From Vibrio ziniensis (GTDB taxonomy: Bacteria; Pseudomonadota; Gammaproteobacteria; Enterobacterales; Vibrionaceae), in NCBI RefSeq assembly GCF_011064285.1, contig NZ_CP049331.1, positions 992,001-1,056,000 on the forward strand: a stretch of DNA of 64,000 nucleotides, in the 5' to 3' direction. The position numbers and the translations under genes were made by a program. The notes below the pieces were generated by a model. The model worked only from the letters and a program-made list of their open reading frames with translations, searched no databases and was not told the DNA's origin. This document shows, piece after piece, positions 34,183-38,668 of the stretch; the first letter of the stretch is position 1, and every line of letters begins with the position of its first letter.

Positions 34183-35022
34183 ATGGTTATTAAGGCAAAA
34201 AGCCCAGCAGGTTTTGCAGAAAAATACATTATTGAAAGCATTTGGAACGGTCGATTCCCACCTGGTTCCATCCTACCTGCAGAACGAGAACTCTCTGAGC
34301 TTATAGGTGTAACTCGAACAACTTTGCGTGAAGTTCTTCAGCGTTTAGCTCGTGATGGATGGCTTACTATTCAGCATGGTAAGCCAACAAAAGTGAACCA
34401 GTTTATGGAAACATCTGGCTTACATATTCTAGATACATTAATGACGTTGGATGCAGATAATGCAACCAGTATTGTTGAGGATCTGCTAGCGGCCCGTACG
34501 AATATAAGTCCGATTTTCATGCGCTATGCATTTAAGATCAATAAAGAGAATTCTGAACGTACGATTACTAATGTTATTGAATCCTGTGAAGCTCTTGTAG
34601 CTGCAGAATCGTGGGATGCATTTATGGCTTCTTCACCATTTGCAGATAAATTGCAGCAACATGTTAAAGATGATGGTGAAAAAGACGAAGAAAAGCGTCA
34701 ATCAGTGTTGATTGCTAAGACCTTTAACTACTATGACTATATGTTGTTTCAGCGTTTAGCATTCCATTCTGGCAACCAAATATATGGTTTAATCTTTAAT
34801 GGAGTGAAAAAGTTATACGACCGTGTTGGTAGTTACTACTTCTCTAACCCTGAAGCTCGCGAGCGTTCACTAGCATTTTACCGAGATCTATTAGAGATTT
34901 GTCGGTCAGGAGATCGCGAGCAGTTACCAGGAGTTATTCGCCACTATGGTATTGATAGTGCTCAGATCTGGAACAAGATGAAAGATACATTGCCTTCGAA
35001 CTTCACTGAAGACGATTCTTAA
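34183..35022 (+). CDS. fadR: Fatty acid metabolism regulator FadR
   Basis: FadR (279 residues) represses fatty-acid degradation genes and activates unsaturated fatty-acid synthesis; acyl-CoA releases it from DNA. The GntR-type winged helix covers about residues 1-75 ([31 protein letters not shown] split: [22 protein letters not shown]). The remaining helical domain binds acyl-CoA. It is about 40 residues longer than E. coli FadR (239). The extra stretch, around [20 protein letters not shown], corresponds to the insertion known in Vibrio FadR, which adds a second ligand site. It is divergent from nhaB. Confidence 0.96.
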
Positions 35023-35025
35023 TAG

Positions 35026-35050
35026 AAAAAGCCCGCAAGCGGGCTTTTTT
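35026..35050. terminator. Terminator between fadR and the DUF1887 gene
   Basis: AAAAAGCCCGC (35026-35036) and GCGGGCTTTTT (35039-35049) form a strong stem with A and T runs on either side. It serves the two convergent genes. Confidence 0.93.
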
Positions 35051-35079: not shown

Positions 35080-36240
35080 TTATATATTTTCTCTACCGCC
35101 AGCTTCTTTAAACCAAGCGGTAAGATGAGTTTTGAGGTCTTTCAACTCATCAGGGCCGATAAGTGCGAGACCTAGATCCTCTGCCCTTGTAATATCGTTA
35201 TGACGAAGAGGTCGGAAGCTAACTAACATAGCTCGTGCTTGTAACCCACCTAATAGATCGCGAAGAGACTCCAATTTATATAATGTGTCATCGCCATCAT
35301 CACGCATGCCTTTAGTTTTACATTCGATGATATACAGTTTGTTGTTCACAACCGTTGCGATGTCGAGTTCATTACGGACTTCTTTATCACCCAGTTGACG
35401 GTAAACCTGTACGTTTAAAGAACGATCCTGAATTGTCGGCAAATCATCTTGAATCTGTTTAACGGTACTGTGTACAAGCGTTTCTAACCATTCACCATTT
35501 GAGAATCGACGAGCATCTTCGTTCGCAAAAGTCAGTACGCCATTTTTATAGATGGCGATGTCAGTTTCAACTAAATCGTTAAGCAACATATTCAGTTCAC
35601 GATAGCCTTGTTGCTTCTCAGAGAGCTCCACATCCAAACGCTGCTCTTTTCTACAGGTTGTAGCTAAGTAATTCAGTGTTGCTAAACCTGGACCTAATTC
35701 CAAGGCGTTACTTGCCCAGCGTTCACCTAGGTTATAGAGCTTTTCGTCCAACTGAGGCGGAATGTTCTGCTCACTAAATTCTCCACGTGCACCGAATATC
35801 GTCAAGTAATCAGAAATAGTAATATGGTCCTGTACTTGAGTATCTGCATTACCGTCAGGATATAGCCAGCATAAACAGTCGCTGTTCGGTTCCACGACGA
35901 AAATCGGCCAGTGGTAGGTGCGGAAAACTTCATATACACAAAGTAGCCTGTGTCTGAGACCGCAACTCGCATTAAGCTTAATAGGCAAATTACGTTGTTT
36001 TAGGTCTTCAGCAAGAACGTTAATCGCTTTTTTAATGTCAGCAACGTTAGAGCCTGCTGGTATTTCGAAAAATTCGGAAGTGATATCGCGCTGACTGAGC
36101 ACTGAGTGTAAACGTGCATACATTACTTGTTGCGAACGATCTCCAATAAAAACGATGTGGCTACTTGCGGTTCTATTATCTAAAAGCGGGGTAACCAAGC
36201 GAACGGGGTCTTGGTCAATAATGCCAACATGAACGGCCAT
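35080..36240 (-). CDS. Stand-alone DUF1887 protein: CARF-like domain plus PD-(D/E)XK nuclease
   Basis: The 386-residue protein belongs to DUF1887, the family that includes V. cholerae VC1899 and the CRISPR-linked nucleases Card1/Can2. Residues 1 to about 150 form a Rossmann-like CARF domain. At residues 90-98 it reads NASCGLRHR, whereas I recall CRISPR-linked members having an N-x-TGGTK type motif. The C-terminal part carries a PD-(D/E)XK signature: NELD (Asp293) followed by IIECK (Glu306, Lys308). In Card1, binding of cyclic tetra-adenylate activates a single-strand nuclease. Here no CRISPR, cas10 or cyclic-oligonucleotide synthase gene is nearby. GAGGAAAA precedes the ATG. The fold is well supported; the signal and target are unknown. 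Confidence 0.88.
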   Translation of the reverse strand: MAVHVGIIDQDPVRLVTPLLDNRTASSHIVFIGDRSQQVMYARLHSVLSQRDITSEFFEIPAGSNVADIKKAINVLAEDLKQRNLPIKLNASCGLRHRLLCVYEVFRTYHWPIFVVEPNSDCLCWLYPDGNADTQVQDHITISDYLTIFGARGEFSEQNIPPQLDEKLYNLGERWASNALELGPGLATLNYLATTCRKEQRLDVELSEKQQGYRELNMLLNDLVETDIAIYKNGVLTFANEDARRFSNGEWLETLVHSTVKQIQDDLPTIQDRSLNVQVYRQLGDKEVRNELDIATVVNNKLYIIECKTKGMRDDGDDTLYKLESLRDLLGGLQARAMLVSFRPLRHNDITRAEDLGLALIGPDELKDLKTHLTAWFKEAGGRENI

Positions 36241-36324
36241 AGTTTTTCCTCATGTTCGGCTTGCAAAAAGAGTTAAGTATGAAAGGTTTGCCGCAAGCCA
36301 TAGCTATCATATAACGGCGCTATG

Positions 36325-36363
36325 CGGAAAAAACAAGGGTGACCTTACAGAAAAGGTCACCCT
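36325..36363 (-). terminator. Minus-strand terminator after the chemoreceptor gene
   Basis: AGGGTGACCTT (36336-36346) and AAGGTCACCCT (36353-36363) form an 11-bp stem; the A run at 36328-36333 becomes a T run on the minus strand. Confidence 0.85.
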
Positions 36364-36417: not shown

Positions 36418-38409
36418 CTAGAGTTTAAATCTATGTACTAGCTCACTTTGTTGCGACGCAAGTTGAGTAAGGTTCGTGCTGTTCGATGCAATTTCCGCCA
36501 TTGCCCGATAGCTATCATCAGCAATAAGATTGATGTCTTCAATACTTCGAGCGATGTTAGCTGTCGTTTCGTTTTGTTCTGCTGCTGCTTGAGAAATATG
36601 TGTACTCATTTGGCTGATTTCGATGATCAGAGCCTGAATTTCTTCCATTGCACTATTTGCGTTTGAAGCTTGCTCAACCGATTGTTCCATATCCTTCATG
36701 CAGCTTTCGATCACTTGACTTGCTGATGTTGAACTTGATTGTAGGTTACTGATCATATTTTCAATTTCAGTGGTCGATTCGGTCGTGCGCTTAGCGAGAA
36801 CGCGAACCTCATCCGCAACGACAGCAAAGCCTCGTCCTTGTTCTCCAGCTCGAGCTGCTTCAATTGCTGCATTTAGTGCAAGCAGGTTAGTCTGTTCGGC
36901 GATATTACGAATAACATCAAGAATACTACCAATCTGGCTACTCATTCGACGCAAATCGTTAGTCGCTTCTACTGACTCATTCAAACGAGCTTCAAGCTGG
37001 TTAATTGTCGAAATGTTTTGGCTCATCACTACGCGACCTGATTCAGATGCGGTTTCGACTTGTTGAACCATTTGCAGTGAATTTTGTGCACTATTGGCGA
37101 CCTCTTCAACCGAATGAGCCATCTCTGTCATTGCTGTTGCCACACTTGCTGTTTGTTCGCGTTGGCTATTTAACTGAGACTGTGCACCTTGAGATGTAGT
37201 CTGGTTATTATTTGCTGTAGACGTTAGAGCATCTGAAGCATGATTTAGCTTTTTCAGAATGTCATGCAGGCTATCGGCTAGAGTATTAATATGGCCGCTG
37301 ACTCGACTAAATTCGTTGTTATAACGAATGTCGATGCGTTGAGTCATATCACCGTCAGTTAAGCTTTCTAACGTATTCAGAATACGTTTTAGAGGTTCGC
37401 GTACACTTTGAGCTAAATGGTAGCCAATGGCTAGAGCGACCACGAGTACGGCGATACCAATTCCCACAGCTTTATAAAGTCCTTGATGATAGACTTCACC
37501 TGCATCGACTAATGATTCATTTAAGTCATTAGTCGCTGTTTCGTTAAATGAATCTAAGATGGTCATCGCGTTATCAATTTCGACCGCAAGGTTGCCGATA
37601 TTTTCATACAAAGCAGTTCGTGCTTTTAGATATTCGTTGTGTTGATCGAGCACTCCGCCTTTCTGACCGATGTCTTGGGTAAATTGTTCAACTTTCTTTT
37701 CGAAAGCATTTTTAATATCAGGAAGCTGTGTCACTAATCCTCGGTAGGCATAGTTCAAGTGGGTCACTGCTTTCTTGTTAAGGGCTACGGCGTTTTCAAC
37801 AAATTCAACATCGTTACTTGCTAACGCATCCGAAGTGATCACCTCTGCATCACGTAGCTTCATAAAATAGCTTTTTGCCATGACCTTAATAGCGATGTTG
37901 TTTTGGCCGTCAACCGCTTCTTTCATCCCAGCACTTAATTCCGCTTGTAAGCGCTGAAATTCCCGTGTTGATTTCTGCACTTTAGATTGAGCATCAAACA
38001 TTGCTTGATAGTTATTCATGGCGTTATCTGCTTCGCTAAAATATCTATCTTCCAGTTGTTTAAGTGCTTCAATGCGTTCAATGAGATCAGGATGTGTAGA
38101 ACTTGCTTGCTCAAGTTGGTTTAAGGTATCACTGAACTTATTTTTTGCAGCCGCAAATGAATTGCGCATGTCACTCATTCGTTCCAGATTTTGAGTAGTT
38201 AGAAAGTCTTTGAAGGACTTGTCGGCTGACAATAGTTGGACGCTAGTTTTATTCGATAAAGAAACAAGCGGTAAGGCTGTGTTAGAAACACTTTCAAAAT
38301 TGGAATGAATCTGGTTCATTCCACTAGTCATGATAGCAACGGTCACGGCAAACATGATGACGATTAATGCAAATCCAGCATACATCCGCCTAATAACGGA
38401 ACCTTGCAT
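36418..38409 (-). CDS. Methyl-accepting chemotaxis protein
   Basis: This 663-residue chemoreceptor has an N-terminal membrane helix (about 11-31) and a long helical periplasmic domain of the four-helix-bundle kind. A second membrane helix lies near 310-330, followed by a HAMP domain ([14 protein letters not shown] region). The cytoplasmic signalling hairpin has the highly conserved tip [20 protein letters not shown]. It signals to CheA/CheW. There is no NWETF-type CheR-tethering pentapeptide; the protein ends SELVHRFKL. The frame reaches a GTG at 38430, but the ATG at 38409 has GGGGGTAG before it and is preferred. The ligand is not predictable. Confidence 0.94.
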
Positions 38410-38668
38410 ACTTCTACCCCCGGTAAACACATACTCAAAACAAAAAAATAATAAAAATGCTCTATGGCAAATAATCTTAAATTAAGTGATGTGCATTCTA
38501 TTCGGCATTAATTGTCACTTTTTAGACTAAAGTTACAAGTTAGGAAAATTCTCACAAAAAAAGTTTAAATTTGTTAACTGGACATTGTTTTGTATTGAGC
38601 TTTAAAGGGCCTTGACGCATACTCACTCCCACATTGAACTATAAAAAATACCTACTATGGAGCACCTT

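Follow-up and report, generated by a model that had tools for sequence, protein, structure and literature searches.

What does a CARF nuclease do when it stands between two ordinary chromosomal genes, with no CRISPR (clustered regularly interspaced short palindromic repeats) partner beside it? The question is raised by a gene of Vibrio ziniensis at positions 35080..36240, minus strand, of a 64,000-nucleotide stretch of contig NZ_CP049331.1 (positions 992,001 to 1,056,000; this whole stretch is called the window below). An earlier note, made from the sequence alone, had put the gene forward as the best candidate there for an undescribed system. It is not one: the gene encodes the orthologue of Vibrio cholerae VC1899, a protein that is already known. 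The gene is present in nearly all Vibrionaceae, keeps an intact catalytic site and a conserved, altered ligand pocket, evolves under strong purifying selection, and belongs to a genome in which no type III CRISPR genes were found. We moderately favour the reading that it encodes a ligand-gated nuclease which is core to the Vibrionaceae and stands alone, and whose ligand would be other than cyclic tetra-adenylate (cA4). Three points appear to be new in the open-licence literature: the core status of the gene, its constraint, and the single branch that sets its pocket apart.

The intact open reading frame (ORF) starts with ATG and encodes 386 amino acids, all of its features being on the minus strand. 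Over residues 1-378 the protein fits the PADLOC model CARF4--CARF_PDDEXK (E 2.5e-144), and at residues 240-378 (35107..35523) it contains the Pfam nuclease domain Card1_endonuc (PF09002; E 2.3e-62, 209 bits against a curated cut-off of 26.4). With this domain above the cut-off and the PD-(D/E)XK residues Glu253, Glu291, Asp293, Glu306 and Lys308 all present, it is a member of the DUF1887 family of Card1/Can2 nucleases. The CARF-type N-terminal domain covers residues 1-150 (35791..36240), based on the PADLOC match and on approximate limits set by analogy with the CARF domain of Can2, which comprises residues 3-151 (PMC7969007). Within it are the pocket loop of strand 1 (residues 9-14, 36199..36216) and the segment NASCGLRHR (residues 90-98, 35947..35973), the coordinates of both being derived by hand from the ORF. 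The gene limits, the architecture, Asp293, Glu306, Lys308 and the NASCGLRHR segment, as read in the earlier note, are all confirmed by Pfam, PADLOC and the alignment, and the N-x-TGGTK motif that it gave for CRISPR-linked members is real, since many relatives elsewhere, the canonical members, read NATGGTK at this position.

The sequence matches that of VC1899, for which there is a crystal structure (PDB 1xmx; E 5.7e-220, 733 bits, residues 1-382). The match is full-length and NASCGLRHR is the same in both proteins, which places the window protein in the VC1899 orthologue group; the catalytic residues are also the same, and the two proteins differ by ordinary sequence divergence only. VC1899 is the founding member of its family and is said to remain uncharacterised (PMC7969007). 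In 2021 the purified protein was assayed with cA4: DNA was not nicked, and a weak ribonuclease activity was seen on which cA4 had no effect (PMC7969007). One year earlier, a model of VC1899 had accommodated cA4 with few clashes, although its authors cautioned that this did not demonstrate binding (PMC6981274). The residues around the modelled cA4 are Asp9, Gln10, Asp11, Arg14, Asp34, Leu95, Arg96, Val115, Pro118 and Gln334, and both the altered pocket and the missing CRISPR partner of VC1899 have already been noted (PMC7969007). No later functional study of VC1899 appeared among the papers listed by searches of the open-licence literature.

How well, then, is the altered pocket kept? NASCGLRHR is found in 156 of 164 Vibrionaceae loci and the looser form NAS-x-G-x-R in all 164, a set that includes the source genome's own locus and counts some genomes twice. 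For a finer view, 131 distinct Vibrionaceae sequences were aligned (132 rows, the query being entered twice). They come from loci returned by searches (the 30 best of each search, the top 80 among 221 named loci, and 30 genomes chosen for diversity), and broken or divergent copies are consequently under-sampled. Of the 386 columns of this alignment, 103 do not vary (25 of them within residues 1-150, 25 within 151-240 and 53 within 241-386); the invariant residues include D9, D11, P12, R14, N90, A91, S92, G94, R96 and Q334 as well as the five catalytic ones. Five of the ten published pocket positions are invariant and eight are at least 98% conserved. The nine that lie in the CARF domain have a mean conservation of 0.940, compared with a mean of 0.786 over residues 1-150 (P 0.011 by resampling); seven of the nine are at least 98% conserved (P 0.0012) and four are invariant (P 0.043).

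The ratio of nonsynonymous to synonymous substitution rates (dN/dS) of the nuclease gene is 0.007-0.031 in nine species pairs, and the comparison genes give 0.017-0.032 for fadR (six pairs), 0.006-0.030 for nhaB (five), 0.008-0.026 for the chemoreceptor gene (seven) and 0.000-0.028 for hinT (eight), with saturated or missing pairs excluded; these ratios are rough, because many dS values exceed 0.4 and some exceed 1. In a larger set of 19 pairs, the nuclease gene gives 0.002-0.035 in 17, and two are saturated.

Orthologues are present in 191 of 197 Vibrionaceae genomes and in 12 of 13 genera, with a best E of 9.1e-98 or lower in each. The six genomes without one comprise two of 1.0-1.1 Mb (G026, G242), two of 2.1-2.6 Mb (G062, G079), one of 3.1 Mb (G221) and one of 4.4 Mb that is 94% complete (G063). 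Beyond the family the homologues are sporadic, being found in 23 of 368 other genomes of the class sample at no more than 42% identity; in the order sample, 34 of the 47 genomes with homologues (among 394) are Vibrionaceae by code. There is no match in 50,697 phage records, and 72,556 plasmid records gave one partial match (29%, half of the query).

Could a signalling partner be encoded elsewhere in the source genome? Genome-wide searches, which include the window, returned no match for Cas1 (9 of 14 control genomes positive) or RAMP (four control genomes positive); in the window itself, the Pfam/NCBIfam scan covered six ORFs. The earlier note had further proposed a search for cas10 and for a cGAS/DncV-like nucleotidyltransferase (CD-NTase), and this search is answered in part. 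The Cas10 palm model has six matches in the genome, and the four that were scanned are all GGDEF diguanylate cyclases; with no match for RAMP or Cas1, type III linkage was found neither nearby nor in the genome. As for the CD-NTase gene that would mark a cyclic oligonucleotide-based antiphage signalling system (CBASS), SMODS has no match genome-wide (three control genomes positive), and a DncV-like profile has none either but is uninformative, because no control genome matched it. Diguanylate cyclases pass the curated cut-off of the Pfam Cas10 palm2 model (G000:C1:717488, G000:C2:372523, G000:C1:3071048), which hence overcalls Cas10 in GGDEF-rich genomes. The Cas10 palm model was dropped as a type III marker, since 161 of the 197 Vibrionaceae genomes match it, largely through GGDEF proteins judging by the scores, and the RAMP model was used instead. 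RAMP genes occur in 14 of the 197 genomes, all of them nuclease carriers; 177 of the 191 carriers are therefore without RAMP, provided that both counts cover the same 197 genomes.

Among the known systems, Can2 (PDB 7bdv) shares the CARF and PD-(D/E)XK architecture (profile match E 4.1e-58, catalytic Glu and Asp residues aligned), but it belongs to type III CRISPR whereas the window gene has no CRISPR neighbour. Card1 (PDB 6wxw; E 4.5e-18), which is activated by cA4, and the dual-activated CARF nuclease 8z4i (Cdn1 by name; E 2.3e-18) are of the same CARF nuclease family and far more distant from the window protein than the Can2 match. Cdn1 is linked to type III-B and is activated by cA4 and by cyclic hexa-adenylate, cA6 (PMC12825302). 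The cA4 contacts of Can2 include Ser19, Thr42, Lys99 and Tyr118, of which Ser19 and Tyr118 each bond a phosphate (PMC7969007). The window protein has Asp9, Asp34, Arg96 and Val115 instead, Arg96 being a like-charged change.

The same contrast runs through the family. Homologues from other gammaproteobacteria mostly share three motifs, namely S-x-Q-P or S-x-Q-A on strand 1, NATGGTK behind strand 4, and FYVHP, whereas the VC1899 branch has D-x-D-P, NASxGxR, and mostly VVEP or VIEP. Three loci of these other homologues were inspected, L226 and L227 being type III by Cas10 and Csm5, and L228 by eye from its ORFs. Trees were built from the best 120 of 648 proteins, from which rows more than 80% identical to a kept row or shorter than 330 residues were dropped. 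This left 102 rows, and 95 after seven long-branched or short ones (L218, L225, L080, L073, L072, L078 and P0213) were also removed, two of which (L218, L225) carry non-GG motifs and are linked to type III. The motif columns were excluded from both trees. In the 95-row tree, one single branch parts the altered rows from all others, with a Shimodaira-Hasegawa-like approximate likelihood ratio test (SH-aLRT) value of 99.9, by a quick method without bootstrap and with labels set after the motifs and the tree had been viewed: P0204, P0214 and P0232 (C93, T-K, S-type strand 1) were labelled canonical, and P0167 (GG, acidic strand 1) altered. With the plain label of GG at 93-94 or not, four changes are needed on the 102-row tree. 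The trees are unrooted and thus say nothing on the direction of the pocket change.

At the position of Can2 Ser19, 32 of the 37 canonical rows have Ser, and the 58 altered rows have Asp (38), Gly (15), Asn (4) or Glu (1). At the position of Tyr118, Tyr is found in 36 of the 37 canonical rows, and the altered rows have Val (28), Ile (14), Cys (5), Met (5), Thr (3), Leu (2) and one other residue. All 95 rows have the same five nuclease residues. RAMP was not found in the genomes of probable altered-pocket members outside the Vibrionaceae (G724, G890, G906, G615 and the partial G830), which were classed by best match and not placed on the tree. One Vibrionaceae genome, G074, carries a second, 36% identical nuclease copy with the altered pocket, reading NASCGPRH (L217:8001-9140, contig C2); its protein, which the tree includes, is the same as that of a Thaumasiovibrio occultus record, and G074 is outside the 14 RAMP-bearing genomes. 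In Thalassotalea (L268:6413-9149), an altered-pocket nuclease gene immediately follows a gene for a TraG/TraD-like coupling protein, as though a conjugative element carried it.

How might such an enzyme work? By analogy with Can2, the CARF domains would dimerise, and their pocket would bind a small, probably nucleotide-derived ligand; binding would then bring the two PD-(D/E)XK domains together, and RNA, perhaps also DNA, would be cut. The ligand is probably not cA4, because Asp9 and Val115 replace the phosphate-bonding Ser and Tyr of Can2 and because VC1899 was not regulated by cA4 in the published assay. Instead of type III CRISPR, a host or stress pathway common to the family would supply the signal. 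It is speculation that Asp9 and Asp11 read a guanine-like edge, which would make cyclic di-GMP, cyclic GMP-AMP and guanosine tetraphosphate (ppGpp) candidates. More tentatively than the reading as such, it is possible that this core enzyme of the whole family answers a signal molecule read by no known CARF protein, and that a single change of pocket chemistry, in which both phosphate contacts are lost and the strand-1 residues become mostly acidic, sets its branch apart from the canonical readers of cA4. Both a different signal and a house-keeping role, which the earlier note had suggested, fit the data. If the reading is true, a CARF nuclease that acts outside CRISPR and answers a new messenger would widen the known range of nucleotide signalling.

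Several observations weigh against a ligand-gated nuclease. On the substrates tried, purified VC1899 was barely active as a nuclease (PMC7969007), and the gating of its orthologues is something that we infer by analogy. Asp34 of the pocket is kept in only 63% of the aligned sequences and Gln10 in 87%, and the conservation of the pocket can stem from dimer packing instead of a ligand. The gene is split in 2 of 37 carriers (G010, G019), and several further genomes of the 197 have two matches each. Among the loci compared, no conserved operon partner that would point to the signal was seen. Moreover, an altered-pocket member, Neiella P0134, adjoins a type III-D locus: in G679, whose protein is identical to it, the altered-pocket gene is adjacent to genes for a membrane CARF protein and for the type III-D proteins Cas6 and Cas7, in a locus with a Cas10 of 607 amino acids that has GGDD (best PADLOC E 4.2e-68). 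An altered pocket therefore does not imply a CRISPR-free life, which weakens the implication of the earlier note that the motif is altered for want of a CRISPR partner, and such a pocket may still accommodate the product of a Cas10. The split copies appear as two overlapping matches (G010:C2:1123577-1124732 and G019:C63:44658-45811), for which a frameshift or an interruption is possible. In the type III-D loci L269 and L218, the altered-motif nuclease gene is convergent to a membrane CARF gene, which in L218 is followed by a CARF5-type gene.

That the Vibrionaceae protein has kept a response to a cyclic oligoadenylate, and is at work only after a type III system has been acquired, would agree with the Neiella locus and its GGDD Cas10 in the same altered branch, and relatives in type III-like loci (L218, L225) fall near that branch on long branches of their own. 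It is nevertheless highly improbable, as RAMP genes occur in so few of the genomes that carry the nuclease, and VC1899 is not regulated by cA4 (PMC7969007). It was also suggested that VC1899 is a degenerate defence enzyme, "cast adrift" from type III CRISPR, with its original function gone (PMC7969007). The replaced cA4 contacts, the absence of DNA nicking and of a cA4 response in the purified protein and the split copies are in line with this, but a functionless gene would hardly be present in 191 of 197 family genomes, with invariant catalytic residues and a dN/dS in the range of fadR and nhaB. These data argue strongly against the loss of all function and make this explanation very unlikely, while loss of the original CRISPR-linked function is compatible with them. 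With core, intact and strongly constrained orthologues, the "degenerate relic" becomes a testable question of ligand and substrate.

Two further explanations were considered. In one, the nuclease is an anti-phage effector that has become fixed in the family and responds to a cyclic nucleotide other than an adenylate, either phage-induced or CBASS-like. The relation of its family to type III effectors speaks for it, and Asp9 and Asp11 could perhaps read guanine-like edges; no SMODS nucleotidyltransferase was found in the source genome, however, and most defence genes lack the core presence and very low dN/dS of this gene, so we regard it as unlikely. In the other, the nuclease trims or degrades RNA under stress once its CARF domain has sensed a nucleic-acid end, an RNA fragment or a partner protein. 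RtcR, which answers 5' tRNA fragments with a cyclic phosphate, is a CARF protein that works outside CRISPR (PMC7790460), although it is a transcriptional activator of RNA repair genes and not a nuclease. The house-keeping-like conservation fits such a role, yet the fold and the position of the pocket follow the cA4-binding Can2 and Can1 (PMC7969007, PMC6981274), and the explanation is accordingly doubtful, if less so than the anti-phage one.

As the earlier note had read them, the flanking genes are fadR (34183-35022) and a chemoreceptor gene (36418-38430). The setting recurs in the close relatives V. metoecus and V. mimicus (L099, L118), and presumably also around VC1899 itself. Among 79 named Vibrio loci with enough flank, the chemoreceptor gene precedes the nuclease gene in 76, and the gene that follows is fadR in 39, that of uridine phosphorylase (udp) in 28 and neither in 12. 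Loci fetched from the other genera most often have udp (Pfam PNP_UDP_1) and a zntA-like gene for a heavy-metal P-type ATPase as neighbours, the names udp and zntA being our interpretation; where adjacent, they are convergent with the nuclease gene. A functional partnership with fadR was rejected, since no operon partner was seen, and the linkage is thus no functional evidence.

A terminator scan found 2 terminator-like sites against 1.1 expected. A terminator-like stem and T run on the minus strand (36336..36363), a consensus match only, lies 3' of the chemoreceptor gene and suggests that the nuclease gene is transcribed alone. Between the convergent fadR and nuclease genes is the palindrome AAAAAGCCCGC-AA-GCGGGCTTTTTT (35026..35050, no strand assigned), which is absent from the list of the terminator scan and is, judging from its sequence and position, a probable terminator common to both genes. 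LexA control was rejected, as CTGTN8ACAG occurs in 0 of 80 upstream stretches, and so was strong folding of the 5' untranslated region as a family-wide trait (mean z -0.94 for 124 upstream stretches, against -0.16 to -1.44 for controls). Within part of the genus Vibrio, a leader hairpin is kept 5' of the ribosome-binding site (36258..36299, minus strand), with the arms GGCTTGC and GCAAGCC. In 39 hand-picked Vibrio sequences, 38 of them distinct, its 7 bp covary: 95.8% of cells are paired, against at most 42.4% when slid, four of the seven pairs are changed on both sides, and 0 of 500 shuffles equal its percentage paired. The hairpin could protect the mRNA or serve self-regulation.
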